Shown piece by piece: positions 15,488 to 43,451 of a stretch of DNA of 43,611 bases (position 1 is its first letter; each line of letters opens with the position of its first letter). The DNA is taken from NCBI GenBank assembly GCA_023131225.1, contig JAGLZW010000037.1, forward strand, positions 1 to 43,611. Direction: 5' to 3'. The notes below the pieces were generated by a model. The model saw only the letters and a list, made by a program, of their open reading frames with translations, did no database searches and was not told the DNA's origin. A program made the position numbers and the translations under genes. This DNA comes from Candidatus Bathyarchaeota archaeon (GTDB taxonomy: Archaea; Thermoproteota; Bathyarchaeia; Bathyarchaeales; SOJC01).

Positions 15488-15493
15488 TTCTTA

Positions 15494-15898
15494 TCAACGG
15501 CTTTTCTCTACACTTTTTTTGACAAAATTTACTATGGTTTCTGTTGGTGTGCCAGGTCCAAAGGTTTCTTTTATTCCTAGCTGCTTAAGAGACGAAACAT
15601 CTTCTTCTGGGATTATACCACCAGCAAATACAATGACATCATGTAGTCCCTTTTGCTTGATGAGTTCCATTATTCTAGGGAAAAGTGTCATGTGAGCGCC
15701 TGACAGTATGCTAAGTCCTAGAATGTCAACATCTTCTTGTAAAACTGTCTCCACTATTTGTTCGGGTGTTTGTCTCAGCCCTGTGTAGATGACTTCCATT
15801 CCAGCGTCTCTTAAAGCCCTCGCCACAATTTTTGCGCCTCTATCGTGGCTATCCAACCCTGGCTTTGCTACAAGAACTCGGATTTTTCTATCTTGCAA
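15494..15898 (-). CDS. acyl-CoA mutase small subunit, B12-binding domain
   Basis: A stand-alone cobalamin-binding subunit of 134 residues. DSHDRGAK (from residue 16) is the DxHxxG motif whose His18 is the lower axial cobalt ligand. LSILSGAH and [11 protein letters not shown] are the other dimethylbenzimidazole-pocket motifs. It pairs with the large subunit encoded immediately upstream (17-base gap) to make a two-subunit mutase, common in archaea, instead of the fused bacterial enzyme. Confidence 0.94.
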
Positions 15899-15915
15899 TG
15901 TCTAAATGCCTCCTC

Positions 15916-17604
15916 CTAAACAACTATCAATTCCTTATATTCTCCATACACTTTTCGAAGGACACCACATATTTCACCTATCGTCGCATAAGCTTTTACA
16001 GCTTCAATTATTATAGGCATCAAGTTTTGGTCTTTGTCTGCCGCATCATGAAGTTTGCCTAAGGCTTGTTCTACTTTAGCATTATTGCGTTCGCGCCGAA
16101 GCTTTTGAAGTGTCGCCACTTGTTGTTCTTCAACTCCAGGGTCGATGCGTAGGAGTTCGATGGGGCATTCAGGTTCTTCGATGAAATATTCGTTCACGCC
16201 AACCAACGTTCTCTCATTGCTGTCAATTTCACGTTGGTACTTATAGGCGCTATCAGCGATTTCTTTTTGGAAGAATCCTCTTTCGATGGCTTCGTAGACG
16301 CCACCCATGTTGTCGATTTTTTCAATGTATTCCCTGGCTTTTTCTTCCATCTGATTTGTTAATGTTTCCACGTAATAGCTTCCTCCAACTGGGTCTATCG
16401 TATTTGGGACACCACTTTCGCATGCAATTATCTGTTGTGTGCGCAGGGCTATACGAACAGCTTCGTCGGTGGGAAGGCATAACGCTTCGTCGTGACTATT
16501 TGTGTGCAAGCTTTGTGTCCCCCCAAGTATTGCAGCAAGCGATTGGATTGTGACGCGGATTATGTTGTTGAGCGGCTGATTAGCTGTTAATGTACAGCCA
16601 GATGTTTGGACATGCATGCGCATCCACATGGAGCGTGGCTTTTGGGCGTGGAATCTGTTCTTCATAAGTTTCGCCCAGAGTCTACGTGCCGCTCGGAATT
16701 TAGCTATTTCTTCGAAAAGATCGTTGTGGCTGGCGAAGAAGAAGCTTAAGCGTGGGGCGAAGTTGTCTACTTTGAGTCCTCTTTCAATGGCTGCTTCTAC
16801 ATAGGCGATGCCGTCGTAAAGTGTGAAGGCTAGTTCTTGAATGGCGTTTGAGCCTGCTTCGCGGATGTGGTAGCCACTTATGCTTATAGGGTTCCATTTT
16901 GGCAGATTTTTAGTGCAGTATTCAACTATATCTATGACAAGTTTGACTGATGGCCTTGGAGGAAATATGCAGAGTTTTTGAGCGAAGAATTCTTTGAGAA
17001 GGTCGTTTTGTGTCGTGCCTCCAAGCATTGTGCGTGGAACGCCTTGTTTGTCTCCTATGGCGACATACATTGCCAACAGTATGGCTGCAGGGCCGTTTAT
17101 GGTCATGCTGGTTGTTACTTTGTCAAGAGGAATTCCGTCAAAGAGAATTTCAAAATCTTTGAGCGATGCAACTGCGACACCGCATCTGCCTACTTCGCCT
17201 TCTGACATCGAATGGTCAGAGTCGTAGCCCATGATACTAGGGTAGTCGAAGGCGATACTGAGACCCGTTTCCCCTTCATGAAGAAGATATTTGAACCGTC
17301 TATTCGTTTGCTCTGCAGTGCCAAAACCGCTGAACTGGCGCATTGTCCATAAGCGGCCTCGATACATTGTGGCATGTACGCCGCGGGTGAAGGGGTATTC
17401 TCCTGGGAATCCTATGTCTTGAATGTAGTCGACGCTATTGGTGTCCGTCGGGGTGTAGAGTCGTTCTATTGGGATTTCTGAGGTGTTGTAAAATTCTTTT
17501 TTTCTTTCCGGATGGCGTTTTAGCCAATTCGAAGCTGTGGTTTTTTCCCATTGTTCTTGTTGTTTAGTAAGTTTGTTATGTTCCTTGGGTTCTTGAGAGG
17601 TCAA
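15916..17604 (-). CDS. B12-dependent acyl-CoA mutase large subunit (isobutyryl-CoA-mutase-like active site)
   Basis: The 562-residue TIM-barrel subunit carries FTRGVHATMYRGRLWTMRQ, GYDSDHSMSEGEVG, GTTQNDLLKEFFAQ and SLHTNSHDEAL, all typical of the methylmalonyl-CoA mutase superfamily. The substrate-selecting pair is Phe91 (in TMRQF) and Gln209 (in FFAQK), 118 residues apart. Known enzymes use Tyr89/Arg207 (methylmalonyl), Phe80/Gln198 (isobutyryl) or Ile90/Gln208 (2-hydroxyisobutyryl), each also 118 apart. The sequence thus predicts interconversion of isobutyryl- and butyryl-CoA, not methylmalonyl- and succinyl-CoA. The TTG start has AAGGAG upstream. No epimerase is nearby. It heads the operon with the B12 subunit, MeaB and adenosyltransferase. 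Confidence 0.93.
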   Translation of the reverse strand: MTSQEPKEHNKLTKQQEQWEKTTASNWLKRHPERKKEFYNTSEIPIERLYTPTDTNSVDYIQDIGFPGEYPFTRGVHATMYRGRLWTMRQFSGFGTAEQTNRRFKYLLHEGETGLSIAFDYPSIMGYDSDHSMSEGEVGRCGVAVASLKDFEILFDGIPLDKVTTSMTINGPAAILLAMYVAIGDKQGVPRTMLGGTTQNDLLKEFFAQKLCIFPPRPSVKLVIDIVEYCTKNLPKWNPISISGYHIREAGSNAIQELAFTLYDGIAYVEAAIERGLKVDNFAPRLSFFFASHNDLFEEIAKFRAARRLWAKLMKNRFHAQKPRSMWMRMHVQTSGCTLTANQPLNNIIRVTIQSLAAILGGTQSLHTNSHDEALCLPTDEAVRIALRTQQIIACESGVPNTIDPVGGSYYVETLTNQMEEKAREYIEKIDNMGGVYEAIERGFFQKEIADSAYKYQREIDSNERTLVGVNEYFIEEPECPIELLRIDPGVEEQQVATLQKLRRERNNAKVEQALGKLHDAADKDQNLMPIIIEAVKAYATIGEICGVLRKVYGEYKELIVV

Positions 17605-21568: not shown

Positions 21569-21913
21569 TTATCTGGAGTCTCCTTTGATGAGGTCTTTTA
21601 ACACTTCTTTCACAGGCATCTCAAAAAGCTCTCGCAGACGATTCAACAATTCTGTTCCATTTTGGGTTATCGAATAGTATTTAATGCGACGTCTACCCCT
21701 TTGTGTCCACTCGCCAGCTATGAAACCTCTTTCTTCTAACTCATATAAGAGAGGATATATTATTCCCGGATGGAAGTTTTGTCCAGTTAATCTCTTCATC
21801 TCCTTAACAAGTCCGTAGCCGGACATGGGTTTCTGGCTTATAAGCCATAGAATAACGACTCTGCTGAAGCCCCTCAAAGTGGCTCTAATTAAGTCTCTTT
21901 CCGCCTCAGTCAT
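21569..21913 (-). CDS. PadR-family transcriptional regulator (copy A)
   Basis: A 114-residue winged-helix repressor. ILWLISQKPMSGYGLVKEM is the first part of the PadR domain, HPGIIYPLLYELEERGFI the recognition helix region, and GRRRIKYYSIT the wing; a short C-terminal helix for dimerisation follows. PadR proteins commonly repress adjacent membrane-protein or transporter genes. It is transcribed away from a second PadR gene, and the two share about the same pattern throughout (KRLTGQ, IYPLL/VYPLL, GxR wing), suggesting an inverted duplication. Confidence 0.9.
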   Translation of the reverse strand: MTEAERDLIRATLRGFSRVVILWLISQKPMSGYGLVKEMKRLTGQNFHPGIIYPLLYELEERGFIAGEWTQRGRRRIKYYSITQNGTELLNRLRELFEMPVKEVLKDLIKGDSR

Positions 21914-21995
21914 AAAGTAGACACCTCAAATAGGGTTCATTTTGATTATATCCAACATTCTTATTAACTCCTTTCCACATAACACCTGCAAAAGG

Positions 21996-22007
21996 TTGAT
22001 ATATCAA
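21996..22007. promoter_or_regulatory. palindrome between divergent PadR genes
   Basis: TTGATATATCAA is a perfect 12-base palindrome in the 126-base gap between two head-to-head PadR genes, a typical place for a PadR operator. A related palindrome, GATATATATC followed by AAAAC, occurs at 23933-23942 before the radical-SAM gene. It could also serve as the TATA region. Confidence 0.4.
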
Positions 22008-22039
22008 AATTCAAACTATTATTATGGAGTTGGGTCTCC

Positions 22040-22375
22040 GTGGTTAACATCATCAATGCGTTTCTAACTGGCCTCGAGAGACCGCTCGTACTTTGGCTTT
22101 TGTCTCGTGGACCTATGCACGGATATGAAATTATTAAGGAGTTTAAGAGATTAACGGGGCAGAAATTGAAGCCAAGTAGCGTGTATCCCCTTCTCCACTG
22201 GTTAGAGGACGAGGGTTTTCTCGTCAGTGAATGGATTAAAAAAGGTAAACGCAACCTAAGGCGTTATCGCTTAACCGCGAAAGGAGAAAATCTTCTTTTG
22301 AAAGTGCGCAACTTTTTCAACAAGCCAATTAGAAATGTAATCGCTGACTTGTTAAGTGAACAAAAAGGAAAATGA
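22040..22375 (+). CDS. PadR-family transcriptional regulator (copy B)
   Basis: A 111-residue PadR protein: VLWLLSRGPMHGYEIIKEF, KPSSVYPLLHWLEDEGFLV and a basic wing KKGKRNLRRYRLT, then a C-terminal helix ending in a Lys-rich tail. It starts at GTG 22040, 33 bases after the palindrome. The gene is convergent with the UbiA gene, two bases apart. It probably senses a small molecule and controls neighbouring membrane or lipid genes; the ligand is unknown. Confidence 0.9.
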   Translation: MVNIINAFLTGLERPLVLWLLSRGPMHGYEIIKEFKRLTGQKLKPSSVYPLLHWLEDEGFLVSEWIKKGKRNLRRYRLTAKGENLLLKVRNFFNKPIRNVIADLLSEQKGK

Positions 22376-22377
22376 GT

Positions 22378-23325
22378 CTACAAGCCAAGTATTTTTCCCA
22401 CCAACACATAAGCCCCTACTACAGTTATTATTATAACTCCAAATTTTCTTGCTGTTTTCTGTAGGCTGACAACATTTTCTGTCGTTGGATTTTTAGTCGT
22501 AATTAGGTAACGCTTGGCAATTGGTATGAAAAACGGGAGCGGTAAGAAAAACAGAAGAAAATAGTTGAAAGGCAATAAGCCAAAAGCCGCGTAGATGAAA
22601 GGCAAGAGCCCAGTTATGAAAGATAAAAATCCTATAGTAATAATGCCTTTCTTTCTTCCATACTTAACAACGAAAGTTTGAACTCCCATCTTATGATCTG
22701 CTTCATAGTCTCCAAGTGCTTGCAAGATGTGGCCGCTAGAGTGAGCTAACATAAACGGTATTGCACCCGCCAGAATGAGCAGGATGTTGACATTCGATTT
22801 GGAAGATGCGCCTACTCCCATTAAAAACGGAAGCAGACCAGCACCTACGCCTGAAACGACGAAATCCATAACCGGCACACTTTTCAGACGAAAAGGCGGG
22901 ACAGAATAGGCAATCCAAAGGGTAAAATAAACAAGGAACAATGATATAAGAACCCTGTCAACTAAAAATATTGAGAATAAACATAAAATAATCAGTGAAA
23001 AAGAAAGAATTAACGCTGTTCGTGGCGCTATCTTTCCAGAGGCAACAGGGAGATTAGATTTTACTACGTTCCCCTGATCCTCCTCTCTGTCGAAATATTG
23101 ATTCAAAATAAAGATGCTGGCTGTAGCAAATGAGAAAGCAAACAAGACAATAACAATGCGTTCAGGGGGAGGTAAACCTAGGAAAATGCTCCCAAACCCC
23201 AAACAAAAAATCCACCCAAGCCAGCTCTCGATTCTGGCAACTTTGAGGTACTCCTTAAGAATCTTAGTTCCCTCCTGTGCGGCTTCACTTCTTTTCGTGA
23301 ACCAACATAGGGCTCCGGGCTTCAT
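22378..23325 (-). CDS. UbiA-family prenyltransferase
   Basis: A membrane enzyme of about nine helices that transfers a polyprenyl chain. The first Asp motif is NQYFDREED (75-83) and the second is GDYEADHKMGVQ (around 210-221); both are needed for Mg-diphosphate binding and are intact. NLPVASG after motif 1 is more like ring or quinone prenyltransferases than the NRPDRP form of archaeal DGGGP synthase, so the acceptor is open. From ATG 23325 it overlaps the upstream gene by 41 bases; an AGGAGG lies just after that gene's stop, eight bases before an ATT at 23262 that would start the protein just ahead of its conserved ARIESW helix. Confidence 0.9.
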   Translation of the reverse strand: MKPGALCWFTKRSEAAQEGTKILKEYLKVARIESWLGWIFCLGFGSIFLGLPPPERIVIVLFAFSFATASIFILNQYFDREEDQGNVVKSNLPVASGKIAPRTALILSFSLIILCLFSIFLVDRVLISLFLVYFTLWIAYSVPPFRLKSVPVMDFVVSGVGAGLLPFLMGVGASSKSNVNILLILAGAIPFMLAHSSGHILQALGDYEADHKMGVQTFVVKYGRKKGIITIGFLSFITGLLPFIYAAFGLLPFNYFLLFFLPLPFFIPIAKRYLITTKNPTTENVVSLQKTARKFGVIIITVVGAYVLVGKILGL

Positions 23326-23506
23326 ACGTTATTAAGTAAACTACAGTCGTGATGTGTTCTCGACTTCCAAAACTAAGTTTCACGTCCAAGATTTTAGCAC
23401 CCTTATTCTGAAGGCTTTTTAATATTCTGTTTATTGACGTGGTATCCTTTTCTGTGTCAAATCTGCCCGTGCTAAAGGAGCTAACTAATTGGACAAAAAC
23501 AGGCAT
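23285..23506 (-). CDS. hypothetical 73-residue protein upstream of UbiA
   Basis: No family is recognised with confidence. The product is a small alpha/beta protein: a strand (MPVFVQLVSSFS), a helix with INRILKSLQNKGAKILDVKL, then TVVYLITYEA as a second hydrophobic strand. This beta-alpha-beta order is found in small dimeric DUF4177-like proteins, but that is a guess. It starts with ATG, overlaps the annotated UbiA start and is probably co-transcribed with it. Confidence 0.6.
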   Translation of the reverse strand: MPVFVQLVSSFSTGRFDTEKDTTSINRILKSLQNKGAKILDVKLSFGSREHITTVVYLITYEARSPMLVHEKK

Positions 23507-23517
23507 TCTTTCGCTCC

Positions 23518-23628
23518 CTATCCATATTTAAGCACTTGGACTGGGTCCATCTTTCGTGCTTTTTGTGCTGGATAACATCCGAAGAGAATGCTGACATGTA
23601 CAACAGCGGAAGTTGGCTTTGCATCACT
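23518..23628 (-). pseudogene. C-terminal stub of an FtsX/MacB-type ABC permease
   Basis: A minus-strand frame from a TGA at 23629 to TAG at 23518 encodes VHVSILFGCYPAQKARKMD followed by PVQVLKYG and the stop. This is the standard last helix and tail of FtsX-type permeases (YPAxKAxxxDPVxaLrY). Only about 36 residues remain and there is no start. It implies that an ABC permease, a common PadR target, once stood here and was lost. Confidence 0.7.
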
Positions 23629-23640
23629 TCATTTGCCTCT

Positions 23641-23904
23641 TCAGGTCGCAGATGGACGCATTTCTTCGTAAAATGTGACCTCTCCAGTGTCTGTGTTTAT
23701 CTGAAGCTTAGAAGATTTCGAGAAAGCAAAGAAATACGCCCGTTTGAATTGTAATTCTCCTTGTAATACCCAATTATTCTTCTCTTTATACACTGTCCTG
23801 AAAAGAATCCTCTCCACTCTAGAGTGTCTTTGTTTAATGAACTCCCTAGCTTTCGCTTCTACATGTGTGCGCTCTTTCTCTACTGTATCTGTAAAGGTTT
23901 TCAT
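23641..23904 (-). CDS. hypothetical 87-residue protein
   Basis: Unrecognised but gene-like. An N-terminal charged helix (VEKERTHVEAKAREFIKQ) is followed by strands in a pattern ending LQINTDTGEVTFYEE, which resembles a PepSY-type or cystatin-like strand pair (xIDxxTGEVxxxxE). It begins with ATG 23904 and is divergent from the radical-SAM gene, sharing a 156-base upstream region that contains the palindrome GATATATATC at 23933-23942. Confidence 0.5.
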   Translation of the reverse strand: MKTFTDTVEKERTHVEAKAREFIKQRHSRVERILFRTVYKEKNNWVLQGELQFKRAYFFAFSKSSKLQINTDTGEVTFYEEMRPSAT

Positions 23905-23932
23905 GGGTCATACCCCTTATCACCACAAGATA

Positions 23933-23942
23933 GATATATATC
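23933..23942. promoter_or_regulatory. palindromic promoter-region element
   Basis: GATATATATC followed by AAAACTTAAA resembles the PadR intergenic element GATATATC followed by AAAATTCAAA (near 21998). It sits between divergent genes and could be an operator or an extended TATA region. Confidence 0.3.
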
Positions 23943-24060
23943 AAAACTTAAATGTTTTGCGAAATGGCATATTGGCGTTACATGTAATAGGGAAAAAGGA
24001 ACGCGTGGTGGGATGGCGTGACTCATACATGGCATTCATTTGATCTCAAAGGGAAAAAAC

Positions 24061-25626
24061 ATGTTAAGTGAACAAGGAGTAAAAATTGTCCTAACAGCTT
24101 CAGCGACGGAAATGAGTGACTTCTTCAATAACCCGTTCATTGCCTTCGTAGGAGGGTTTTCGAAGGGACCAATACCATTATGGCTTACAAGAAAGCAGCT
24201 GTATCCACCAGTTAAGAAAAACCATAATGGCACTGCGAAATATGCGCCTTATGGACTTAGGAAGGTTGAGGGGATTCTTATAGAAAACGGATTCGACGAA
24301 TCCGATATTGCTGTTGCTCATCCCAACAATCTTGGCTCCTTCGTTGGTCCAAATACAAAGGTTGTAGGCATATCAAGTATGGATCCTCTGGGAATGGGAT
24401 ACGTCAGTAAAACATATTCTTCACTAGTTGGCGGTGGGGAACCCATGAACGCGATAGAATTTAGAAACTTGATGAAGCATGAGAGCCTCCAAACACACAA
24501 ACCAAAGGTTATAGTTGGTGGTGCTGGGGCGTGGCAGCTTGAATACAAAAACGTAATGAAATCTTATGGAATCGATTGTATCGTGATGGGAGAAAGCGAA
24601 ACGGTAGTAGCCGAGCTTTTTGCCAAAGCTGTGAAAGGTGAAAGTCTTCCTCAAGTAGTTCATGTTAATGCAAGCCCAAAGGATGAGAGTATACCTACGA
24701 TAAAGCATGCATCGATTCATGGGTGCGTTGAAATCTCAAGAGGCTGTGGTCGAAACTGTCAGTTTTGTACACCTACAATGCAGAAGAGAAGGAATTTCCG
24801 ACTAGACAAAATTATGGAAGAAGTGAAAGTTAACATCAAAGAAGGAGCTGAGATGATAACTCTCAGCACCGAAGATGTTTTCCTATACGGTGCCAAGAAC
24901 AACGGTTTTATTCCCAATAAGAAAGCAGTTTTGAAATTGCTTAGAAGCGTCGCCTCCCATCCAAGAGTTAAAGCTATCCAACCATCTCACATGTCGTTGG
25001 CACCAGTTGTTCACGATCCCGGCATGGTTGAGGAAGCATCGGAGATACTGATTGAACACAGCTGGTATAGCCACAGTGGGAAACCGATTGTAACGGCTGA
25101 GACGGGAATAGAAACTGGTAGCACTCGCCTTATCCAAAGATACATGGCAGGGAAACCACTTCCATTTAAACCTGAAGATTGGAAAGAACTTGTCTCTCAA
25201 GCCTTTGGAATTTTGAACGACAACAATTGGTATCCGCTTGCTACTTTAATAGTAGGTCTGCCGGACGAAATTGAAGACGACGTAATAACGACACTTGAAT
25301 TGATTGATGACCTAAGCGAGTACAGGGCTTTTTTTGTCCCATTACTTTTTGTTCCTTTAGAAAGTTGTCTCTTGAGCAAACAACACGGCGCCGAATTGGA
25401 TTCGCTTTCGAGAGCACGATGGGAGCTTCTCACAAAATGCTGGAAATACAATGTCCATGTTTGGCATTCATCCTTCCTTGAATGCCGAGTCCGCAACCCT
25501 TTGCTTTACAATTTCATTACGAAATTTCTACTTCCCTCAGTCGGGTTTCTCTCAGGGCTCTACTATGGAGCAAAACACGGAAAAATCGTTCAAGATTCGA
25601 TCTGGGATATGGCTGGAGTTACATGA
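24061..25626 (+). CDS. B12-binding-type radical SAM protein (A)
   Basis: A 521-residue radical S-adenosylmethionine enzyme. The cluster motif is ISRGCGRNCQFCTP, with the three cysteines at 229, 233 and 236. Before it, residues 100-200 look like the Rossmann-like cobalamin domain of class B proteins (KVVGISSMD, KVIVGGAGAW, CIVMGESETVV), although no DxHxxG is present. After it come TLSTEDVFLYG, TAETGIETGS and ATLIVGLPDE, the usual later radical-SAM strands. ATG 24061 has AAAGGGA upstream and is preferred to TTG 24040. Such enzymes methylate or rearrange unreactive carbons. It is followed by a second enzyme of the same class after 43 bases. Confidence 0.9.
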   Translation: MLSEQGVKIVLTASATEMSDFFNNPFIAFVGGFSKGPIPLWLTRKQLYPPVKKNHNGTAKYAPYGLRKVEGILIENGFDESDIAVAHPNNLGSFVGPNTKVVGISSMDPLGMGYVSKTYSSLVGGGEPMNAIEFRNLMKHESLQTHKPKVIVGGAGAWQLEYKNVMKSYGIDCIVMGESETVVAELFAKAVKGESLPQVVHVNASPKDESIPTIKHASIHGCVEISRGCGRNCQFCTPTMQKRRNFRLDKIMEEVKVNIKEGAEMITLSTEDVFLYGAKNNGFIPNKKAVLKLLRSVASHPRVKAIQPSHMSLAPVVHDPGMVEEASEILIEHSWYSHSGKPIVTAETGIETGSTRLIQRYMAGKPLPFKPEDWKELVSQAFGILNDNNWYPLATLIVGLPDEIEDDVITTLELIDDLSEYRAFFVPLLFVPLESCLLSKQHGAELDSLSRARWELLTKCWKYNVHVWHSSFLECRVRNPLLYNFITKFLLPSVGFLSGLYYGAKHGKIVQDSIWDMAGVT

Positions 25627-25669
25627 AGTATGCGGCTGAATCTAAACGGTCTGAAAGGATGCATGTAGA

Positions 25670-27529
25670 ATGGCTTATAAAAGAGTTTTATTGGTGAAAC
25701 CGAAAGGAAGGAAAGGTTTAGGTTTTGCACTAGACCTGATTCCAATTGGTTTGGAATACATCGCTGCATCAATAGAGAATGTCGTAGAAGATGTTCACAT
25801 AATCGACATGGAACTTGAGCAACATCCACTCAAACATTTTCTTGATCTTTTTCGTCCTGATTTAGTAGGAATAACAATGTCGGCAACTGATCACAAAGAG
25901 GGATTGCACCTTGCCAAAATTGCCAAGAAAAATGACATCGCAACTGTACTTGGAGGCTATCATCCTACCCTTGTTCCTGACGAGTTACTTTCGCATTTAC
26001 AAGTTGATATGGTAATTCGTGGTGAAGGAGAGTATACAATGAAGGAACTTATACAGAAAGGCTGTCCAAAAGGCGTTCTTGGTGTTTCGTACAAAGAAAA
26101 CGGAAAAATGGTTCATAATGAAGATTGCCCGATGATTGAAAACTTGGATTCGTTACCGTTTCCAGCTAGACACTTAAGGAGACACAAATACGACCACATG
26201 AACAGCAGAGGTAGGGAAATGGATGTCATTTGCATCTCCCGCGGCTGCTTGGGAAGGTGCAGCTTTTGTTGTGAACCTATTATGAATGAGGGTCGCCAGC
26301 GTTTCCGCTCGTCTGAAAATGTCATGGCTGAACTATTAGAGATCGCATCCTTCCATAATGGAAAACCACTCCGAATCCTTGTGGTGGATCCAAATTTTAT
26401 GGGAAATCCTAAAAGAATTGATCGTTTGTGCAATTTGTTGCACGACCATAAACTGGATATAATGTTCTCAGTAATGGCAAGGGTTGACAGCGTTGCCAAA
26501 CATCCTCAGCTCATCAAGAAGATGTGTGAAAACGGTTTTCTTGACTATGAATTGGGAATTGAAAGTCCAAGTTTAAGGGATTTGAAGAACACACGAAAAG
26601 GCATAACCCTCGAGATGCAAAGAAAGGCCGTGAAAATACTTCGGGATAACGGTGCCGACGTTTCAGGAACTTTTGTCATCGGTCTACCAGGTCAGACTGA
26701 GGAAGAGATAAAGCAGTTTTCTGTTTACGCAAAAGACCTGGGCTTAATGAACGCAGCATTCGGTATTGCGACCCCATTTCCTAGAACCGAATTTTACAGC
26801 AACCTGGATAAAAATGGTTTGATAGTCGAGCGCGATTGGGTGAAATACGATGAAATGCATTCTGTGTTCAGGTTGGATGGCATAAGCAGAACACGACTAG
26901 AAGAATTAGAAACCTATTGCATGGCAAGATTTTGGACGTTAAATACACTTTTGGATCGGGCTAAGGTTTTGCAGAGAAGATCTGGAAAGAAGATATCATT
27001 AAAGGATTTTATAGATGATATTGTTGGAAAGATAACGTTCGGTAGGAATGTTGGGTGCGACCTGCGAAAGGGAGCTTTTGAGAATCACCTCAAGGCGGTT
27101 TTAGAGGCGATTGTGGACGCTGAAAGTGAAGAAAGGGTAAGAAAAATAGACATGCACGATGTCATAGAAATGTCAAGGGTTCTTGGAATTCTCGGTTCAC
27201 AGAAGATACAGTGCACTCTTACATACAAAGAACAGCCTCCTGTTAGCTATATCATAAAAACAAAGCGTAGCAGCAGGGGCAATGTGGAGTACATAAAAAC
27301 TGTTTATGGGAAACAAGATGACGCGACAATAAGTGTTGACATTGACTTAAATGACGTGATAAATTCAGTTAATGATGATTTGTCGTTTAACCCCATAGGA
27401 ACGGCCATCTTCTTGGTAAGATCTGCACGAAGCCTGAAGGGTGTATGGAATGTATTCAGGCTGTGTGCCGCAATAAGCATAGATTTTACCATCACATTCC
27501 TCAATGAAAAGGTGAAAAATAAGATGTGA
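25670..27529 (+). CDS. B12-binding-domain radical SAM protein (B) with extra C-terminal domain
   Basis: A 619-residue class B radical-SAM enzyme. The cobalamin-binding domain is residues 1-130 (LIPIGLEYIAASIE, VGITMSATDH, VLGGYHPTLVPDE, MVIRGEGEYT). The cluster motif ISRGCLGRCSFCC has cysteines 193, 197 and 200, followed by the barrel with LGIESPS and TFVIGLPGQTEEE. Residues from about 470 form an additional domain ending in hydrophobic helices, unlike typical members. The closest described relatives by architecture are lipid- and hopanoid-modifying methylases and archaeal lipid enzymes such as GrsA/B, but this is not proof of the substrate. It lies in one operon with protein A and the next gene. 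Confidence 0.9.
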   Translation: MAYKRVLLVKPKGRKGLGFALDLIPIGLEYIAASIENVVEDVHIIDMELEQHPLKHFLDLFRPDLVGITMSATDHKEGLHLAKIAKKNDIATVLGGYHPTLVPDELLSHLQVDMVIRGEGEYTMKELIQKGCPKGVLGVSYKENGKMVHNEDCPMIENLDSLPFPARHLRRHKYDHMNSRGREMDVICISRGCLGRCSFCCEPIMNEGRQRFRSSENVMAELLEIASFHNGKPLRILVVDPNFMGNPKRIDRLCNLLHDHKLDIMFSVMARVDSVAKHPQLIKKMCENGFLDYELGIESPSLRDLKNTRKGITLEMQRKAVKILRDNGADVSGTFVIGLPGQTEEEIKQFSVYAKDLGLMNAAFGIATPFPRTEFYSNLDKNGLIVERDWVKYDEMHSVFRLDGISRTRLEELETYCMARFWTLNTLLDRAKVLQRRSGKKISLKDFIDDIVGKITFGRNVGCDLRKGAFENHLKAVLEAIVDAESEERVRKIDMHDVIEMSRVLGILGSQKIQCTLTYKEQPPVSYIIKTKRSSRGNVEYIKTVYGKQDDATISVDIDLNDVINSVNDDLSFNPIGTAIFLVRSARSLKGVWNVFRLCAAISIDFTITFLNEKVKNKM

Positions 27530-27533
27530 TAAA

Positions 27534-28643
27534 ATGATCGGTCAATTACGCAGTAAACCAGTTTTTAGTTCTATAGAAGTTCTTGGCAAACTGAAGAATA
27601 AGGCAAGCAAAATACAAAGGGTCGAAGAAACTTACAGCCTTATACGAAAACTTGCTTCCATAAGCGGATCGAACGTGAGTAATGTAATATTAGATCGTGT
27701 TATGTATAGCACCGAAATGTTGCCTCCTTTAGGAAAGGAGTACTGGTGGTTCCTTTTCTTCGGTCGAGATGGAGAAAGACCGAAGCAACTGATGTTATTG
27801 ATATTCAGAAAATATGGGCAAAGCATGTTATTCAACGATAAGAGAATCGCTCTCGAGAAACTGACAGAAAACAGATTTCAAGCTGCTACCGCCTGCTGGA
27901 TATATGACGGAAAAAAGTTTCATGATTTAGGGGACACGAATGCCATAACAACAGTATATCCGAAAAGAAAAATGATAATTTCTGACATTTCAGGTCATGA
28001 AATGGTGCTTAACGGTGGTTTTCCAAATTATAAGCTGAAAGTGGACAACGTTATTGATTTGAATATTAGAAAAGGAGATTATCTCGAAGATAAGGATGCG
28101 CGTGGCGTATTCATACCTCCGTTTGGCATTGGTTGGGTAGATGTTTTTTCAGATGCAGAAGGTATTGTGCTAGGAGAAAAATTCAAGGGAACAGCACACC
28201 TACAAAAAGTTGTCGGCATCACAACATTCGGATCATTTCATTGGGGAAGAGTATTTTTTCAAAACGGTTCTTCAACTTCATTCTTCTGTCTAAAAACAGG
28301 CAAGAAATCAAAAAGGTACTTCCATAGATCTCTAACTTTTCACGATTACAAAAGAAAAAAGATCATTGAATTCAAGAAGCCAAAACTCAAAATCTCAAAA
28401 ATAGAAGGAAAAACGCCAACATGGATTGTTGAAGGGCAAGATGGTAATAAAAAACTCAGGATAACCTTAGGATCTTACGCAACAAAGAAATTCGCTATGG
28501 AAGGCGGCGGTTCACAAGTTTACATAGAATATGCGGTTACACCGAAAGAATTTAGCCTAAAAACAACGAGTCAAGTAATCACCCTAGACGAGTTGGGTGA
28601 AGGCATAGGAACATTTGAGGACGCTTATGGTTCACCGATCTAA
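27534..28643 (+). CDS. lipocalin/CrtC (AttH)-like protein
   Basis: The 369-residue product is beta-rich, with no signal peptide or membrane helix. Blocks such as EYWWFLFFGRD, the central GIGWVDVFSDAEG, FGSFHWGRVFFQ and SQVYIEYAVTP fit the two-barrel layout of carotenoid hydratase CrtC and AttH/DUF2804-type proteins that bind hydrophobic isoprenoids; this assignment is by pattern memory and moderate. ATG 27534 is four bases after the radical-SAM stop, so it is surely in the same operon. A role in binding or modifying an isoprenoid made by the neighbours is inference. Confidence 0.6.
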   Translation: MIGQLRSKPVFSSIEVLGKLKNKASKIQRVEETYSLIRKLASISGSNVSNVILDRVMYSTEMLPPLGKEYWWFLFFGRDGERPKQLMLLIFRKYGQSMLFNDKRIALEKLTENRFQAATACWIYDGKKFHDLGDTNAITTVYPKRKMIISDISGHEMVLNGGFPNYKLKVDNVIDLNIRKGDYLEDKDARGVFIPPFGIGWVDVFSDAEGIVLGEKFKGTAHLQKVVGITTFGSFHWGRVFFQNGSSTSFFCLKTGKKSKRYFHRSLTFHDYKRKKIIEFKKPKLKISKIEGKTPTWIVEGQDGNKKLRITLGSYATKKFAMEGGGSQVYIEYAVTPKEFSLKTTSQVITLDELGEGIGTFEDAYGSPI

Positions 28644-28658
28644 CAACGCATCAGCTAA

Positions 28659-28671
28659 CGCGCAAAGCGCG
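28659..28671. repeat. small GC hairpin after the operon
   Basis: CGCGCAAAGCGCG is a perfect 5-bp stem with a 3-base loop, 15 bases after the stop of the lipocalin-like gene and before the glycosyltransferase gene. It may help end or stabilise the upstream mRNA; archaeal terminators usually rely on T runs, which are absent here. Confidence 0.35.
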
Positions 28672-28735
28672 AAGCTTAAAGTGCGCTAGTATTAACCTTA
28701 AAATCCCGACAAAAGGCAGAATAGTTAACAGTGCG

Positions 28736-29851
28736 ATGACACTCGAAATGAAGAAAATTAGTGTCTTTATACCAGTTTATGAGAATTCGGACTGGTTGGA
28801 GAAGTTGTTAGAGGAATTAACGAACGACTCGTATGAAAATAAGGAAATTTTTGTTACGATAGATAAACCTAATGAAAAATCGCTAAAAGTTGCCAAGAAA
28901 TATGGGCGCCAAGTATTTTTTATTATGAATGAGCAGAGAAGAGGCAAGGTGGATGCTCTAAACAGCGCTGTGAAAATCTCGGAGGGTGAAATTCTAGTTT
29001 TTCTTGACTCTGATGTCAAACTTGGGGATTCAAAGGATTTTTTGGGAATAATAGAATGGGAGATGAGAGACATTAGTATTCTTGACGTGAAAACGAAAAT
29101 TGTACGAGATTCTTTCATACCAAGAATGGTGAATTATGAGTACATTAGCTCCAACTTTGCAAATTACCTTTATTCAAAGCTGATAAAGAGATGTTTCGGC
29201 ATTAACGGAGCTGCTTTCGCTCTGAAAAGAGAGACTTTTGAAGAAGTTGGAGGGTTTTCTAAGGTAGTTTCAGAGGACCTAGATATCGCAGTAAAGGTTC
29301 TTCTAAAAAATAAGCGTTTTAAATACACAGATAAGGTGGAGGTTTACACAAGGGCTCCTTCAAGCTGGAGAAGCTGGTTTGCTCAAAGGAAAAGATGGGG
29401 CATAGGTACTGGTTTATGGCTTAAGGATCATTGGAGAAACTTATTAAAGTATGTAGCGAAGTATCCGCACGTTGCGATCCCAAGCATCCCTATCCTTTTT
29501 CCAACCTTAATTCCACTAGTCCTCAATTATGTTTTCTCTGACTTCCTAGGTTATAAAATTCTTAATTTCGTTTTCATGCTTTTGGCAACACAGTTCAGTT
29601 TTTTGATTCCATTTGTCTTTTCAGTTTCAATGGTACTGGTTCTTTTCACAAGTTTCGTGAATTTTTTCATCAGTTTTCTTCTTTTTTCGGCTCTGTTTTA
29701 CTCAGCCTCACGAAAGCTAAAGCTACACTTCAATTTCTTAGAATTTTTGATATATTACTTCTTTTATCAACCCCTCACCTTCTTTACACTGACAGTGAGT
29801 ATGATAATGCCATTTCTCTTTTCGGAATATGAATTGGATTGGAAAGTCTAA
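28736..29851 (+). CDS. membrane glycosyltransferase, family 2
   Basis: The 371-residue protein has a cytoplasmic GT-A domain: FIPVYENSDWLEKLL at the N-terminus, LDSD (Asp91 and Asp93, metal and sugar-nucleotide site), SEDLDIAVKVL (acceptor acid), and QRKRWGIGT, the QxxRW motif of processive enzymes. From about residue 240 there are four to five transmembrane helices. Members make polysaccharide or glycolipid. It lies 92 bases after the radical-SAM operon on the same strand, so it may glycosylate the lipid product of that locus; this is inference. Confidence 0.9.
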   Translation: MTLEMKKISVFIPVYENSDWLEKLLEELTNDSYENKEIFVTIDKPNEKSLKVAKKYGRQVFFIMNEQRRGKVDALNSAVKISEGEILVFLDSDVKLGDSKDFLGIIEWEMRDISILDVKTKIVRDSFIPRMVNYEYISSNFANYLYSKLIKRCFGINGAAFALKRETFEEVGGFSKVVSEDLDIAVKVLLKNKRFKYTDKVEVYTRAPSSWRSWFAQRKRWGIGTGLWLKDHWRNLLKYVAKYPHVAIPSIPILFPTLIPLVLNYVFSDFLGYKILNFVFMLLATQFSFLIPFVFSVSMVLVLFTSFVNFFISFLLFSALFYSASRKLKLHFNFLEFLIYYFFYQPLTFFTLTVSMIMPFLFSEYELDWKV

Positions 29852-30071: not shown

Positions 30072-30752
30072 TTAAGATGCGTCTTTCTCTACTAGATGTG
30101 CTTTTCTTACGAGTAAATATCCGTTTTGGCCTTTCCAGATTGCTTCTATTTCAACTAGGTCGATTTTTTTCTTGAAAAAGGGTGCGTCTAGAACTAGTGT
30201 TTCATATTCGCCGCCTTCACCTATGAGTGAAATGTGATATTTGCGGTTTAGGTCTTTAAGAGCATCTATAGTGTCTGTGTCTATATGTTTTCCTAACCAG
30301 TTTTTGTTGAAGCCGTGGGCGTAGACGCCAGTTATTATAGCTTTGAACTTCAGATTAACTAGTTCTTTCAGAAGTTTCAGAGGGTTCTTTTTCCAAAGTG
30401 GTGTAATCGAATTGAGACTTAGCTCCTTGCAGATTTTGTCAATTCGCTGCTTTTGATATTGAGAAGCTACTGCTCCAGATATCACGCCTTCTATGTCTAA
30501 TGTGGCTAGTACACGTTTCAAGTCTTTTAGTTCTTCTTCTTTAACCCCCGCTGTTTCTTCCTTTACTAGATGGATGCCTGCAGCTTCTGCGAACAAGTTG
30601 GTTAAGTGGATATTTAGGTAGTGAAACATCCAACTGTCGTCTCTTTTTGGTATCATTGTAACTAAGAACTTTACATCGTGTCCTTCTTGTAAGGTGCGGT
30701 GAAGCGCTAAAGCTGAATCTTTCCCTCCGCTAATCAACGCTGCAACACGCAT
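30072..30752 (-). CDS. dph6: diphthine-ammonia ligase (Dph6-like)
   Basis: An ATP-pyrophosphatase of the adenine-nucleotide alpha-hydrolase fold that amidates diphthine on elongation factor 2. The 226-residue protein starts MRVAALISGGKDS, with the PP-loop SGGKDS at 8-13. It contains MIPKRDDSWMFHYLN, EGVISGAVASQYQK and the diagnostic GEGGEYETLVLDAPFF. The length is normal. ATG 30752 is chosen; a longer frame would overlap the upstream reductase. The two genes are 38 bases apart. Confidence 0.92.
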   Translation of the reverse strand: MRVAALISGGKDSALALHRTLQEGHDVKFLVTMIPKRDDSWMFHYLNIHLTNLFAEAAGIHLVKEETAGVKEEELKDLKRVLATLDIEGVISGAVASQYQKQRIDKICKELSLNSITPLWKKNPLKLLKELVNLKFKAIITGVYAHGFNKNWLGKHIDTDTIDALKDLNRKYHISLIGEGGEYETLVLDAPFFKKKIDLVEIEAIWKGQNGYLLVRKAHLVEKDAS

Positions 30753-30790
30753 AATCAAATCAGACCTTAGTGTCTGTCGTGAAGTAATAA

Positions 30791-32152
30791 TTACTTTTCG
30801 AGTTTTGTTATGGTTTTCTGAAATATCTCTTGGGCTTTCGTTTTCCATTCTTCAAAGTCGTTTGGTGACGCTGGATAATTTCTATACAATGTTTTTATTT
30901 CGTTCATAGAGTCTACCGCGCTTTTTAATTTTATAAGCATGTTAAGCTTCTTTACCCCTTTGACTGCTCTCCTCATTTTCTCGTTGATTGTAAAGTGTAC
31001 ATCTTCGCCCATGCTCGCCTTCAAAATGTCTTCTGCAGTTAGAAGTCTGTTGTGCATTCCATAGTTGAGTTCTTCATCGTCCATGTTCTGTAGAAGTATG
31101 CGAAAGATTTCTAACCCCGCCTGTTTCGCACCATAGTTCCTGGTATACTCTGCATTGTAATCCCATAATCCCTCACGGCTTACGTCACCTTTTTCCAAAG
31201 CCTTTGCGGCTGTCTTCCCTGCTAATGTGCCAGCTATCATTGATGGTCCCATGCCGCCTCCATGAATTGGATTAACTTGGCACGCTGCGTCGCCAACAAT
31301 AATAACGCCGTTGCCCACCATGCTGTCTAGTGGTCTTCGAGTAGGCACATACCATGTCCCCTTGTCAACTATTGAAGAATCTTCAAACAGTGGTTGGGAA
31401 AGAACATGCGTGTAAAGTTGCTCTCTCGGATTCGGAAATCCTTCTGTCATAGCTACCCCCAAGCCTACGTTCACCTTGAGTCCGCCTTCTGCAAAAATCC
31501 AATAATAACCGCCTAGTGCTATTTTTTGAGTGATGTAGATTTGGCAAAGGGAAGGGTCATCTAAAGGCTGTTTCAGCTGCCGTATTTCTCGATAACAAGC
31601 TTCCACGTCTTCATTGGCCACTTTGGTATCAATTGCAATTTCTGGTTTCAACTTCTTTCGAATAGCGGCAAAGAAGCCTGTTGCCTCTACTACTAAGGAG
31701 CTTCGCAGTACATTTTTTTCTCCAGTTTTCAAGTTTTTTGTGGAGACTCCGCATACGAATCCTTGCTCTATCACCGGTTCTAAAACTTGAGTTGCATCAT
31801 ACAAGACAGCGCCAGCATCTACTGCTTCTTTTACCAGCCTTTGCCCGAAACGGCGTCGGTTCAGAATATACCCATACAACTGTTTACCTTTGACAACGTA
31901 ACTGGTTTGCTCATCAGGTGAATACATTTCAATTCCTTCCATTACCCGTTCGAGCTCGTCAGCAGCAGGTTCTTTCAAGCCAAGGTTGTCAAAATGGTGT
32001 TTGCCTATGGCGTCTCCACAGATTTTCTTCCCAATGTCTTCTTTGCTCTTGATGTCGATAAAGCAAACTTTGAGCCCAGCTTCTGCTGCTGTTTTAGCTG
32101 CTAAGCACCCTCCTGTTCCGGCACCAGCAACTATGACATCTAACTTTTCCAA
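30791..32152 (-). CDS. geranylgeranyl reductase family FAD oxidoreductase
   Basis: A flavoprotein that saturates isoprenoid chains; in archaea its main job is reducing digeranylgeranyl phospholipids. The 453-residue protein has the FAD dinucleotide site VAGAGTGGCLAAKTAAEAG, KKICGDAIG, the substrate-site YYWIFAEGG (YxWxF motif) and the second FAD motif IIVGDAACQVNPIHGGGM. A helical C-terminus follows. Archaeal genomes hold several paralogues, so which chain or quinone it acts on is open. Its closeness to UbiA and the radical-SAM enzymes hints at lipid or isoprenoid work. Dph6 follows on the same strand. Confidence 0.9.
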   Translation of the reverse strand: MEKLDVIVAGAGTGGCLAAKTAAEAGLKVCFIDIKSKEDIGKKICGDAIGKHHFDNLGLKEPAADELERVMEGIEMYSPDEQTSYVVKGKQLYGYILNRRRFGQRLVKEAVDAGAVLYDATQVLEPVIEQGFVCGVSTKNLKTGEKNVLRSSLVVEATGFFAAIRKKLKPEIAIDTKVANEDVEACYREIRQLKQPLDDPSLCQIYITQKIALGGYYWIFAEGGLKVNVGLGVAMTEGFPNPREQLYTHVLSQPLFEDSSIVDKGTWYVPTRRPLDSMVGNGVIIVGDAACQVNPIHGGGMGPSMIAGTLAGKTAAKALEKGDVSREGLWDYNAEYTRNYGAKQAGLEIFRILLQNMDDEELNYGMHNRLLTAEDILKASMGEDVHFTINEKMRRAVKGVKKLNMLIKLKSAVDSMNEIKTLYRNYPASPNDFEEWKTKAQEIFQKTITKLEK

Positions 32153-33653: not shown

Positions 33654-33753
33654 TTGTTAATTGCTTTACTTTGCTTTAAATGTTCTATACCCATAGATCG
33701 TGGCTTTCGATGAACCGAAACTGGAGTATGTCCTTAATAGCCCATGAGTTGTT

Positions 33754-33780
33754 AGGGCCAGGCAGGGATTCGAACTTGGG
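33754..33780 (-). other. tRNA 3'-end-like fragment
   Basis: On the minus strand the stretch reads GTTCGAATCCCTGCCTGGCCC, which looks like a T-loop, the 3' half of a T-stem and the 3' acceptor strand of a tRNA. The 5' T-stem side does not pair and no D or anticodon arm is present. Such 21-nt tRNA tails are typical attachment-site remnants of integrated elements. Confidence 0.4.
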
Positions 33781-33859
33781 ATTACATATAGAAAATTGCT
33801 TCAAAAGTCTTATCAACAGTTCGTATACAGTTAGAACAATGATTATGGGAGGCAGAAAA

Positions 33860-34735
33860 GTGAGAATTAAGGCGCTTTCAATCCTTCTGCTGTTTGTACT
33901 GGCTACAAGCTTTTTTGCACTTGTGCAAGCTCGGCCGCAGACCCATCGAAAAGGCGCATCATCCATAGATTTTTACAAGACATCTCGTGGGAAACCTCCG
34001 AAACCTGGACGGCCTAATAAAGGGATTGCCACTGGGGTTGTTTCGGATCCTCCACCTGCAAGTGATAGATGGGCAGTTATCATAGGCATATCAGACTACA
34101 AGGGCGACGCGTATGACCTTGACTACTGTGATGACGATGCATGGGATTTCTATGATGCATTGGTTAGCAAGTACGGTTGGAGTTCCAGTAATATTAAGAT
34201 GTTAATTGATGGCCAAGCTACAAAGGCAAGCATTCTAGGTGCAATCGATTGGATGAGAACTAGGGAAGACTTGGGCGACGAAGTAGTGTTCTTCTACAGT
34301 GGACATGGCTCGGTAAGCAATCGTAATGCAGACAACGATCCTGAGCGGAAAGATGAATGTATAATTCCATGGGAAATCGAGTGGGACTACTATATTTGGG
34401 ATGGAGACCTCCAAGAAGAATTTTCCAGCTTCGAGTCCACACGCATCCTCTTTTACTTCGACAGTTGCTACTCAGGTGGCATGACAGATCTTGCTGGTAA
34501 CGGGCGTCTAATCTGCATGGCGTGCAAAGAAAGGCAATCTTCATGGGAGATGAGTGCTTACGAGAATGGCCAGTTCACTTACTATTTTGTTGATCAAGGC
34601 ATGTTGGCTGGCGAAGCAGATGCCAACAATGACAATGTTGTAACTTGCGAAGAGGCCTTCGACTACGCAAAAGCTAACTGTAAGAGTCAATCTCCTACTC
34701 CGAGCGACAACTTCGAGGATGACATGTTACTATAA
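33860..34735 (+). CDS. secreted caspase-like (metacaspase/C14-type) peptidase with EF-hand loop
   Basis: A clan CD cysteine peptidase. The first 25 residues (MRIKALSILLLFVLATSFFA, then LVQA) form a signal peptide, so it acts outside the cell. The caspase fold starts at RWAVIIGISDY. His149 in FFYSGHGS and Cys203 in FDSCYSGG are the catalytic dyad. Residues 254-265 (DANNDNVVTCEE) form a complete calcium EF-hand loop near the end. Acidic residues around Cys203 suggest Arg or Lys specificity as in metacaspases. GGAGG at 33848-33852 is spaced seven bases before GTG 33860, which decides that start. It neighbours dockerin-bearing secreted proteins, also calcium-dependent. Confidence 0.9.
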   Translation: MRIKALSILLLFVLATSFFALVQARPQTHRKGASSIDFYKTSRGKPPKPGRPNKGIATGVVSDPPPASDRWAVIIGISDYKGDAYDLDYCDDDAWDFYDALVSKYGWSSSNIKMLIDGQATKASILGAIDWMRTREDLGDEVVFFYSGHGSVSNRNADNDPERKDECIIPWEIEWDYYIWDGDLQEEFSSFESTRILFYFDSCYSGGMTDLAGNGRLICMACKERQSSWEMSAYENGQFTYYFVDQGMLAGEADANNDNVVTCEEAFDYAKANCKSQSPTPSDNFEDDMLL

Positions 34736-43364: not shown

Positions 43365-43451
43365 CTTTCTCCCCAAATATAATGTGCATTAGAAACTATT
43401 AATTCTTTTGAAAGAAACTTCTATTTAGATGAATGCACAAACACAAAAAAT

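Follow-up and report, generated by a model that had tools for sequence, protein, structure and literature searches.

What does a bathyarchaeal gene cluster make that brings together two PadR-family regulators, a UbiA-superfamily prenyltransferase, two radical-SAM proteins (RSAM1 and RSAM2), a lipocalin-like protein and a glycosyltransferase? We analysed the cluster in a window of 43,611 nucleotides, in which all of these genes are present where a preliminary description of the DNA had placed them (Table 1). The tight spacing claimed there was recovered as well, with 43 bases between RSAM1 and RSAM2, 4 between RSAM2 and the lipocalin-like gene and a further 92 before the glycosyltransferase. 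The PadR genes do not bound the cluster, as had been proposed, and instead form an adjacent divergent pair at its left end. A small conserved gene, divergent from RSAM1, had gone unmentioned. We consider it probable that the locus serves to modify tetraether (GDGT-type) lipids under the control of PadR.

Table 1. Features of the cluster and its right-hand flank, with positions in the window
Feature	Position	Strand	Basis or remark
PadR-family regulator 1 (PadR1)	21569..21913	-	PF03551 60.7 bits, cut-off 27
cis element TTGATATATCAAAATTCAAA, PadR1/PadR2 intergenic region	21996..22015	+	presumed PadR operator/promoter
PadR-family regulator 2 (PadR2), divergent from PadR1	22040..22375	+	PF03551 64.4 bits, cut-off 27
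UbiA-superfamily prenyltransferase	22378..23325	-	PF01040 105.5 bits, cut-off 34.2
Small conserved protein, 87 aa, divergent from RSAM1	23641..23904	-	conserved in place in L073 and L074
Second cis element copy GATATATATCAAAACTTAAA, upstream of RSAM1 and the small divergent gene	23933..23952	+	match to ATATATCAAAANTYAAA
RSAM1, Grs-family (GDGT ring synthase-like) radical SAM protein	24061..25626	+	homology to GrsA-like/GrsB-like proteins, trees, fold
RSAM2, cobalamin-binding class B radical SAM protein, nearest HpnJ/BchE	25670..27529	+	Pfam and NCBIfam scores
Lipocalin-like AttH/CrtC-fold protein, candidate hydratase/cyclase	27534..28643	+	predicted fold
Family-2 glycosyltransferase (GT2)	28736..29851	+	PF00535 67.7 bits
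Diphthine-ammonia ligase gene, overlapped by the geranylgeranyl reductase gene	30072-30848
Geranylgeranyl reductase, probably core DGGGP-lipid reductase, outside the cluster	30791..32152	-	NF041080 507 bits, cut-off 580

The radical-SAM pair

Judged from sequence comparison, RSAM1 is a member of the Grs (GDGT ring synthase) family, and neither GrsA nor GrsB. It is a full-length homolog of the GrsA-like protein L198 (33% identity over 491 aa, E 8e-81) and the GrsB-like protein L191 (31% over 463 aa, E 8e-76), shares TIGR04013 with both as the best NCBIfam model, and carries the radical-SAM CxxxCxxC motif (C229-GRN-C233-QF-C236, invariant in alignment A2). Its fold matches are class B/MTTase-type rSAM enzymes, and it has long C-terminal helices of the kind reported in GrsA (PMC11186832). 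The assignment of the two reference proteins is based on phylogeny, relatives in the Sulfolobales and map position rather than on record names. Metallosphaera, Aramenus and other Sulfolobales have proteins 75-81% identical to L198, which in turn shares 32% identity with L191; the reported GrsA/GrsB similarity is 31% (PMC8473941). Their positions, 1.354 Mb (L198) and 0.199 Mb (L191), approximately follow the ratio of the locus numbers Saci_1585 and Saci_0240, which are given for GrsA and GrsB where PMC8473941 and PMC9385802 describe the work of Zeng et al. 2019. A profile search found two Grs-type copies in most Sulfolobaceae-like genomes and usually three in families f29 and f61.

In the trees, GrsA and GrsB each form a 100/100 clade that excludes RSAM1, which falls into a separate clade of Bathyarchaeia only; its reaction may therefore differ from theirs. 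RSAM1 differs from GrsA and GrsB also in its company, as it clusters with RSAM2, the AttH-fold protein, the glycosyltransferase and the PadR pair. The phylogenetic comparison suggested at the outset thus groups RSAM1 with a lipid family. The initial labelling of both radical-SAM proteins as class B holds firmly for RSAM2 and less so for RSAM1, whose Pfam radical-SAM match (35.2 bits) is above its cut-off and whose B12-binding match (19.4 bits) falls short of the B12-binding cut-off (32.1). An alternative TTG start of RSAM1 lies at 24040.

RSAM2 can be firmly assigned, by its domains, to the cobalamin-dependent class B radical SAM proteins (B12-binding and Radical_SAM, 66.8 bits each, both above cut-off). 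Its closer placement is less clear than that of RSAM1. The nearest family appears to be HpnJ, a hopanoid-lipid enzyme, followed by BchE; these are its top two NCBIfam matches, with scores of 163.5 and 140.8 bits that are far below the equivalog cut-offs of 577.6 and 481.35, and RSAM2 reaches the cut-off of no named family. It differs from both by a C-terminal part of about 200 residues past the matched region, and from HpnJ furthermore in that its genome has no SQS/PSY and therefore no hopanoid context. HpnJ and BchE are non-methylating cobalamin radical-SAM enzymes tied to ring formation or rearrangement (PMC13142503). The near relatives of RSAM2 act on hopanoids, porphyrins and peptides.

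The calditol synthase route likewise combines a glycosyltransferase and a radical-SAM enzyme, there for the ring contraction of a tetraether headgroup (PMC9385802). We considered calditol synthase as the Sulfolobaceae counterpart of RSAM2 and rejected it: judged by position only, the RSAM2 homolog of genome G326 (L232, at 1.551 Mb) does not agree with the gene number quoted for Cds and is closer to that of the outgroup protein Saci_1785.

A shared upstream motif and the link to tes

The cis element TTGATATATCAAAATTCAAA is conserved in other PadR1/PadR2 intergenic regions. Within the window, GATATATATCAAAACTTAAA at 23933 is the only other match to ATATATCAAAANTYAAA, and the contig L073 carries the element at the same place upstream of RSAM1. 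When nine whole genomes were scanned for the motif, 12 of the 16 matches fell either at PadR pairs or ahead of Grs-like, UbiA, RSAM1 or tes genes, six of these 12 being partly circular as the motif had been derived from the window and L073 sites; the reversed-pattern control gave 3. The motif was not found upstream of the window's UbiA gene, and the PadR consensus ATGT-N-ACAT has no match inside the cluster. An ordinary BRE/TATA element of archaea could account for the CAAAATTTAAA half of the motif. The cluster is apparently switched by the PadR pair. We know of no earlier case of PadR regulation of tetraether lipid genes, for which this cluster suggests a first example.

A second connection leads to the tetraether synthase Tes (MJ0619, 7TOL). 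In genome G234, a tes gene (its product matches PDB 7tol with 562 bits) lies immediately upstream of the RSAM2-lipocalin-like pair. A PDB sequence search returned no Tes match for either RSAM1 or RSAM2, and the tes-family gene of the host genome is on another contig. Control of this host gene by the motif was considered and discarded, since the motif is absent from its vicinity at up to 3 mismatches.

The lipocalin-like protein, the prenyltransferase and the kind of product

The lipocalin-like protein matches neither Pfam nor NCBIfam models at E<=0.01. Its early labelling as CrtC/AttH-like is nevertheless borne out at the level of the fold by an AF2 model (pLDDT 88.7), for which all 22 Foldseek matches with E<=0.001 belong to the AttH/CrtC-type lipocalin-like superfamily. 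They include AttH (2ich), the pericyclases CghA, Fsa2 and Phm7, kievitone hydratase and 25-phosphosteroid lyase (E 5e-8 to 4e-5), and the protein is thus predicted to have a fold typical of hydratases and pericyclases. It is set apart from these relatives by 8-14% identity, TM values of 0.39-0.51 and an N-terminal helix of about 30 residues. To our knowledge, no AttH/CrtC-fold protein has been described from an archaeal lipid cluster. A carotenoid or squalene substrate, as the CrtC-like fold might suggest, is disfavoured because the host genome has a tes-family gene and lacks SQS/PSY (no PF00494 match).

The UbiA protein of the cluster is, by its sequence scores, different from the canonical DGGGP synthase of the genome: it reaches 48.8 bits with the DGGGP-synthase model PRK12882 (cut-off 296), compared to 205 bits for the paralog on contig C13. 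This low score would suit a cluster that makes an isoprenoid small molecule, such as a polyprenol or a quinone-like or meroterpenoid compound. In such a cluster, the acceptor prenylated by UbiA would be an aromatic compound or a sugar, the radical enzymes and the AttH-fold protein would tailor the product, and RSAM1 would have left its tetraether role. The fungal natural-product pericyclases and kievitone hydratase among the AttH-fold relatives, and the RiPP and natural-product enzymes among those of RSAM2, are in keeping with such a product. However, RSAM1 belongs to the Grs family, the RSAM2-lipocalin-like pair directly follows tes in G234, and the motif ties the cluster to tes and Grs-like genes, so that we regard a small-molecule product as unlikely. 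Nothing in the analysis favours the quinone that had been named at first as an alternative product. Whichever the product, we infer that it may be glycosylated, as initially proposed.

Recurrence of the gene order and a proposed lipid pathway

A search of related genomes, as the preliminary description had advised, found the genes together. RSAM1, RSAM2 and the lipocalin-like gene are contiguous in three genomes, and RSAM2 adjoins the lipocalin-like gene in six. The full set (both PadRs, UbiA, glycosyltransferase, both RSAMs, lipocalin-like) occurs on one other contig only, L073, which has PadR, PadR, Grs-like, UbiA, glycosyltransferase, RSAM1, RSAM2, lipocalin-like, geranylgeranyl reductase. 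PadR1 and PadR2 have orthologs in L073, L074 and L084 (67-81% and 63-67% identical, respectively), and the divergent PadR pair is found again in 10 of the other class loci compared. UbiA orthologs (56-59%) adjoin PadR/Grs-like genes in L073 and L084, while the glycosyltransferase has an 83% ortholog in the L073 cluster and a 43% one adjoining PadR/PadR/Grs-like in L137. The small divergent protein, which matches no Pfam or NCBIfam model, keeps its location in L073 (63% identical) and L074 (41%).

The neighbourhood could in part be fortuitous, with a PadR/PadR/Grs-like/UbiA module and an RSAM2-lipocalin pair of separate functions having been joined in a few genomes. The RSAM1 ortholog is indeed mostly found without RSAM2 or the lipocalin-like gene, and most RSAM2 orthologs lack the latter; in G130, RSAM2 is 8 kb distant and no lipocalin-like gene is present, and G034 and G035 have a lipocalin-like gene without an adjacent RSAM2. 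Against this stand the same contiguous order in three genomes, the gaps of only 4-43 bases in the window and the linkage of RSAM2 to tes elsewhere. As this order is shared by several genomes, the cluster is more than a chance neighbourhood. Moreover, cluster proteins are 76-79% identical between families f1 and f4, more than those of a same-genus relative (RSAM1 69%, RSAM2 56%), which is the pattern to be expected if the cluster was transferred as a unit. A partly fortuitous assembly is thus improbable. A bacteriochlorophyll- or porphyrin-type pathway, with RSAM2 as BchE, UbiA as BchG and the reductase as BchP, is barely credible even though an uncultured crenarchaeote reportedly has an archaeal bacteriochlorophyll synthase (Meng et al. 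2009, as cited in PMC11193907), because the scores of RSAM2 to BchE and of UbiA to BchG/ChlG (36-54 bits) are far under the cut-offs (481, 212 and 313), other host radical-SAM proteins score higher to BchE (253 and 213 bits), as does the DGGGP-synthase-like UbiA of C13 to BchG/ChlG (96 and 115 bits), and RSAM1 and the AttH-fold protein would have no role.

Tetraether modification is favoured by the Grs-family membership of RSAM1, the co-occurrence of the genes, the tes adjacency in G234, the motif common to PadR, Grs-like, UbiA and tes genes, and the lipocalin fold; the earlier proposal of a modified isoprenoid or tetraether lipid is upheld in this respect. In the proposed pathway, the PadR pair would bind TTGATATATCAAAA in its own intergenic region as well as the similar copy in front of RSAM1, and would permit transcription in response to a membrane or envelope cue. 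RSAM1 might then form a carbon-carbon bond (ring) in a biphytanyl chain of the Tes-made lipid, RSAM2 could catalyse a second radical step (ring formation, rearrangement or methylation), and the AttH/CrtC-fold protein may hydrate or cyclise an isoprenoid double bond. UbiA would prenylate an alternative acceptor, and the glycosyltransferase would add a sugar headgroup.

Anoxic sediments harbour abundant Bathyarchaeia, from which butanetriol tetraethers have been reported. We know of no genes for these or for several other reported Bathyarchaeial lipids. More tentatively, we propose a PadR-regulated Bathyarchaeia tetraether regulon, in which Grs-like, cobalamin radical-SAM and AttH/CrtC-fold enzymes successively modify isoprenoid chains or headgroups to yield an undescribed membrane-spanning lipid, e.g. 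hydrated, newly carbocyclic or methylated tetraethers; its products possibly include types without known genes, such as the butanetriol tetraethers. If so, an AttH/CrtC-fold protein would be placed in archaeal ether-lipid chemistry, and the cluster would also matter to GDGT-based environmental proxies, as a dominant sediment group would be regulating how its tetraethers are modified. The conserved cluster, with its candidate element, Grs-family enzyme and two more candidate enzymes, provides a testable gene set for Bathyarchaeial lipids, whose composition and modification a recent review names as subjects for further work (PMC12694404).

The geranylgeranyl reductase noted earlier about 1 kb beyond the cluster is a real gene and was considered as a further member. 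It is probably, by sequence, the core digeranylgeranylglycerophospholipid reductase and lies outside the cluster, because it is core-like, is encoded on the opposite strand and overlaps the diphthine-ammonia ligase gene. In L074, the reductase stands in a three-gene order with a 125-128 aa and a 453-454 aa gene, presumably Pth2 and TruD; as this order is repeated on host contig C31, the L074 linkage reflects housekeeping. Only in L073 does a reductase gene directly follow the lipocalin-like gene, with 17 bases in between.

Layout and gene content

All genes listed in the preliminary description were recovered at their positions by gene calls, Pfam and NCBIfam in the window, a contig (C37) of the 1.9 Mb host genome. 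The two PadR genes are divergent, the UbiA gene is convergent with PadR2, and RSAM1, RSAM2, the lipocalin-like gene and the glycosyltransferase gene GT2 follow each other on one strand, separated by 43, 4 and 92 bases. A small conserved gene, absent from that list, is divergent from RSAM1; its product (87 aa) is without family match, and shows 63% and 41% identity to same-place counterparts in two relatives (93 and 96 aa). The geranylgeranyl reductase described nearby is placed outside the cluster, because it scores closest to the core DGGGP-lipid reductase (507 bits, cut-off 580) and lies on the opposite strand. The methylmalonyl-CoA mutase and MeaB genes of the window are consistent with B12 use by the organism.

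Features of the window
Feature	Position	Strand
Methylmalonyl-CoA mutase and MeaB genes	14522-17604	-
PadR1	21569-21913	-
TTGATATATCAAAATTCAAA, PadR1/PadR2 spacer, kept in equivalent spacer of other genomes	21996-22015	
PadR2	22040-22375	+
UbiA	22378-23325	-
Small conserved gene	23641-23904	-
GATATATATCAAAACTTAAA, related to TTGATATATCAAAATTCAAA, upstream of RSAM1	23933-23952	
RSAM1	24061-25626	+
RSAM2	25670-27529	+
Lipocalin-like	27534-28643	+
GT2	28736-29851	+
Geranylgeranyl reductase	30791-32152	-
Peptidase_C14 caspase-domain protein (63 bits), in an archaeon	33680-34735	+
Large solute-binding/CARDB protein, envelope-type	37178-40609	-
NosD/beta-helix protein, envelope-type	41631-43376	-

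Predicted roles of the cluster proteins

Judged by its sequence, RSAM1 belongs over its full length to the GDGT ring synthase (Grs) family, and is the sole Grs-family match in the host genome at E<=1e-25 in a profile search. Across the phylum, this search yielded two copies for most Sulfolobaceae-like genomes (f42) and, as a rule, three for genomes of f29 and f61. The two copies of the complete 2.2 Mb genome G326 share 32% identity (31% similarity is reported for GrsA and GrsB; PMC8473941) and lie at 0.199 and 1.354 Mb, roughly the ratio expected from Saci_0240 (GrsB) and Saci_1585 (GrsA); the 1.354 Mb copy (L198, GrsA-like) shares 75-81% identity with proteins from Metallosphaera, Aramenus and other Sulfolobales. 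RSAM1 shows 31-33% identity to each of the two G326 copies, but just 23%, over 354 aa, to RSAM2. In our trees, GrsA and GrsB form separate, fully supported clades, RSAM1 falls into an additional, Bathyarchaeia-only clade apart from both, and most PadR-linked Grs paralogs belong to yet another. The predicted structure of RSAM1 (pLDDT 77) is similar to those of class B and methylthiotransferase-type enzymes, MgmA being the best match, and ends C-terminally in long helices, similar to those described for GrsA (PMC11186832).

RSAM2 has clear B12-binding and radical-SAM domains. Its best named relatives, HpnJ (163.5 bits) and BchE (140.8 bits), both far under cut-off, are non-methylating cobalamin enzymes, a type that serves ring formation or rearrangement (PMC13142503). 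Methylation may still be a function of RSAM2.

The lipocalin-like protein matches no family in Pfam or NCBIfam. Its predicted fold (pLDDT 88.7) matches AttH, fungal pericyclases, kievitone hydratase and 25-phosphosteroid lyase, and all 22 significant structure matches fall within the AttH/CrtC-type superfamily (moderate TM-scores, 0.39-0.51), so that the proposed CrtC/AttH-like assignment is borne out at fold level. A host UbiA gene on contig C13 reaches 247 and 205 bits to archaeal models and most likely encodes the host's DGGGP synthase; on sequence grounds, the cluster UbiA, with a 59% paralog on host contig C32, is not this enzyme.

Conservation and a probable tetraether link

When 257 genomes from the class were scanned and fetched contigs inspected, conservation emerged on three levels. 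A divergent PadR1/PadR2 pair adjoins a Grs-like radical-SAM gene in many families (ten loci); RSAM2 adjoins the lipocalin-like gene in six genomes (the host, G065, G048, G256, G234 and, decayed, G156); and RSAM1, RSAM2 and lipocalin-like gene are contiguous in three (the host, G065, G048). In the RSAM2 tree, the six lipocalin-linked copies group on one side of a weakly supported branch (bootstrap 55/99). The G065 contig (L073) has two PadR genes, a second Grs-like gene and a geranylgeranyl reductase, along with UbiA (56% identity to the window), GT (83%), RSAM1 (77%), RSAM2 (78%) and lipocalin (76%). These values, which compare families f1 and f4, are higher than those against G189, a genome of the same genus (RSAM1 69%, RSAM2 56%), and suggest that the cluster moved as a unit by transfer. 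A 43% GT2 ortholog lies beside PadR/PadR/Grs-like genes in L137.

The G156 pair (contig C50, 7408-9752) is apparently decayed, with a broken RSAM2 frame and a lipocalin gene lacking its middle part; an RSAM1 ortholog (82%) lies on a different contig. Distant lipocalin-like homologs (22-28% identity, ~370 aa) occur without adjoining RSAM2 at four loci of families f14 and f15.

In G234, a tetraether synthase gene (562 bits to the Tes structure 7tol) lies directly 5' of RSAM2-lipocalin. The host has its own tes-family gene, and an SQS/PSY gene was not found in its genome. We consider it fairly probable that the cluster serves tetraether lipids. At this G234 locus (C240, 3414-7900), the PadR-spacer motif lies ~50 bases 5' of tes; a TAA near the 3' end of the RSAM2 frame may reflect decay or mis-assembly.

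Taking the RSAM1 family, the predicted lipocalin-like fold, the gene linkage and the motif distribution as established, we envisage that the PadR proteins would bind the candidate element, RSAM1 would perform ring or other C-C chemistry and RSAM2 a second radical step, the AttH-fold protein could catalyse hydration or cyclisation, and UbiA and GT would transfer prenyl and sugar groups, respectively. The Grs, Tes, PadR, UbiA and AttH-fold types of protein are each already known; the open-licence literature searched yielded no description of this gene combination, the Bathyarchaeia-only Grs clade or the PadR-associated element.

Candidate regulatory element

Within the window, ATATATCAAAANTYAAA has no match beyond the two tabulated sites. 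A scan of nine whole genomes (<=1 mismatch) gave 16 matches, and three with the reversed pattern as control. Of the 16, twelve occur at PadR spacers or precede Grs-like, UbiA, RSAM1 or tes genes: G065 contributes four (it has no other matches), the host and G118 two each, and G130, G132, G223 and G234 a single one each, that of G234 preceding tes; six of these twelve are partly circular, as the motif was derived from host-window and G065 sites. The remaining four lie at neither PadR pairs nor such genes, and the motif was not found at the host's own tes gene. An ordinary promoter element may account for the right half of the motif. The site 5' of a Grs-like gene on G118:C2 came from the blind scan alone.
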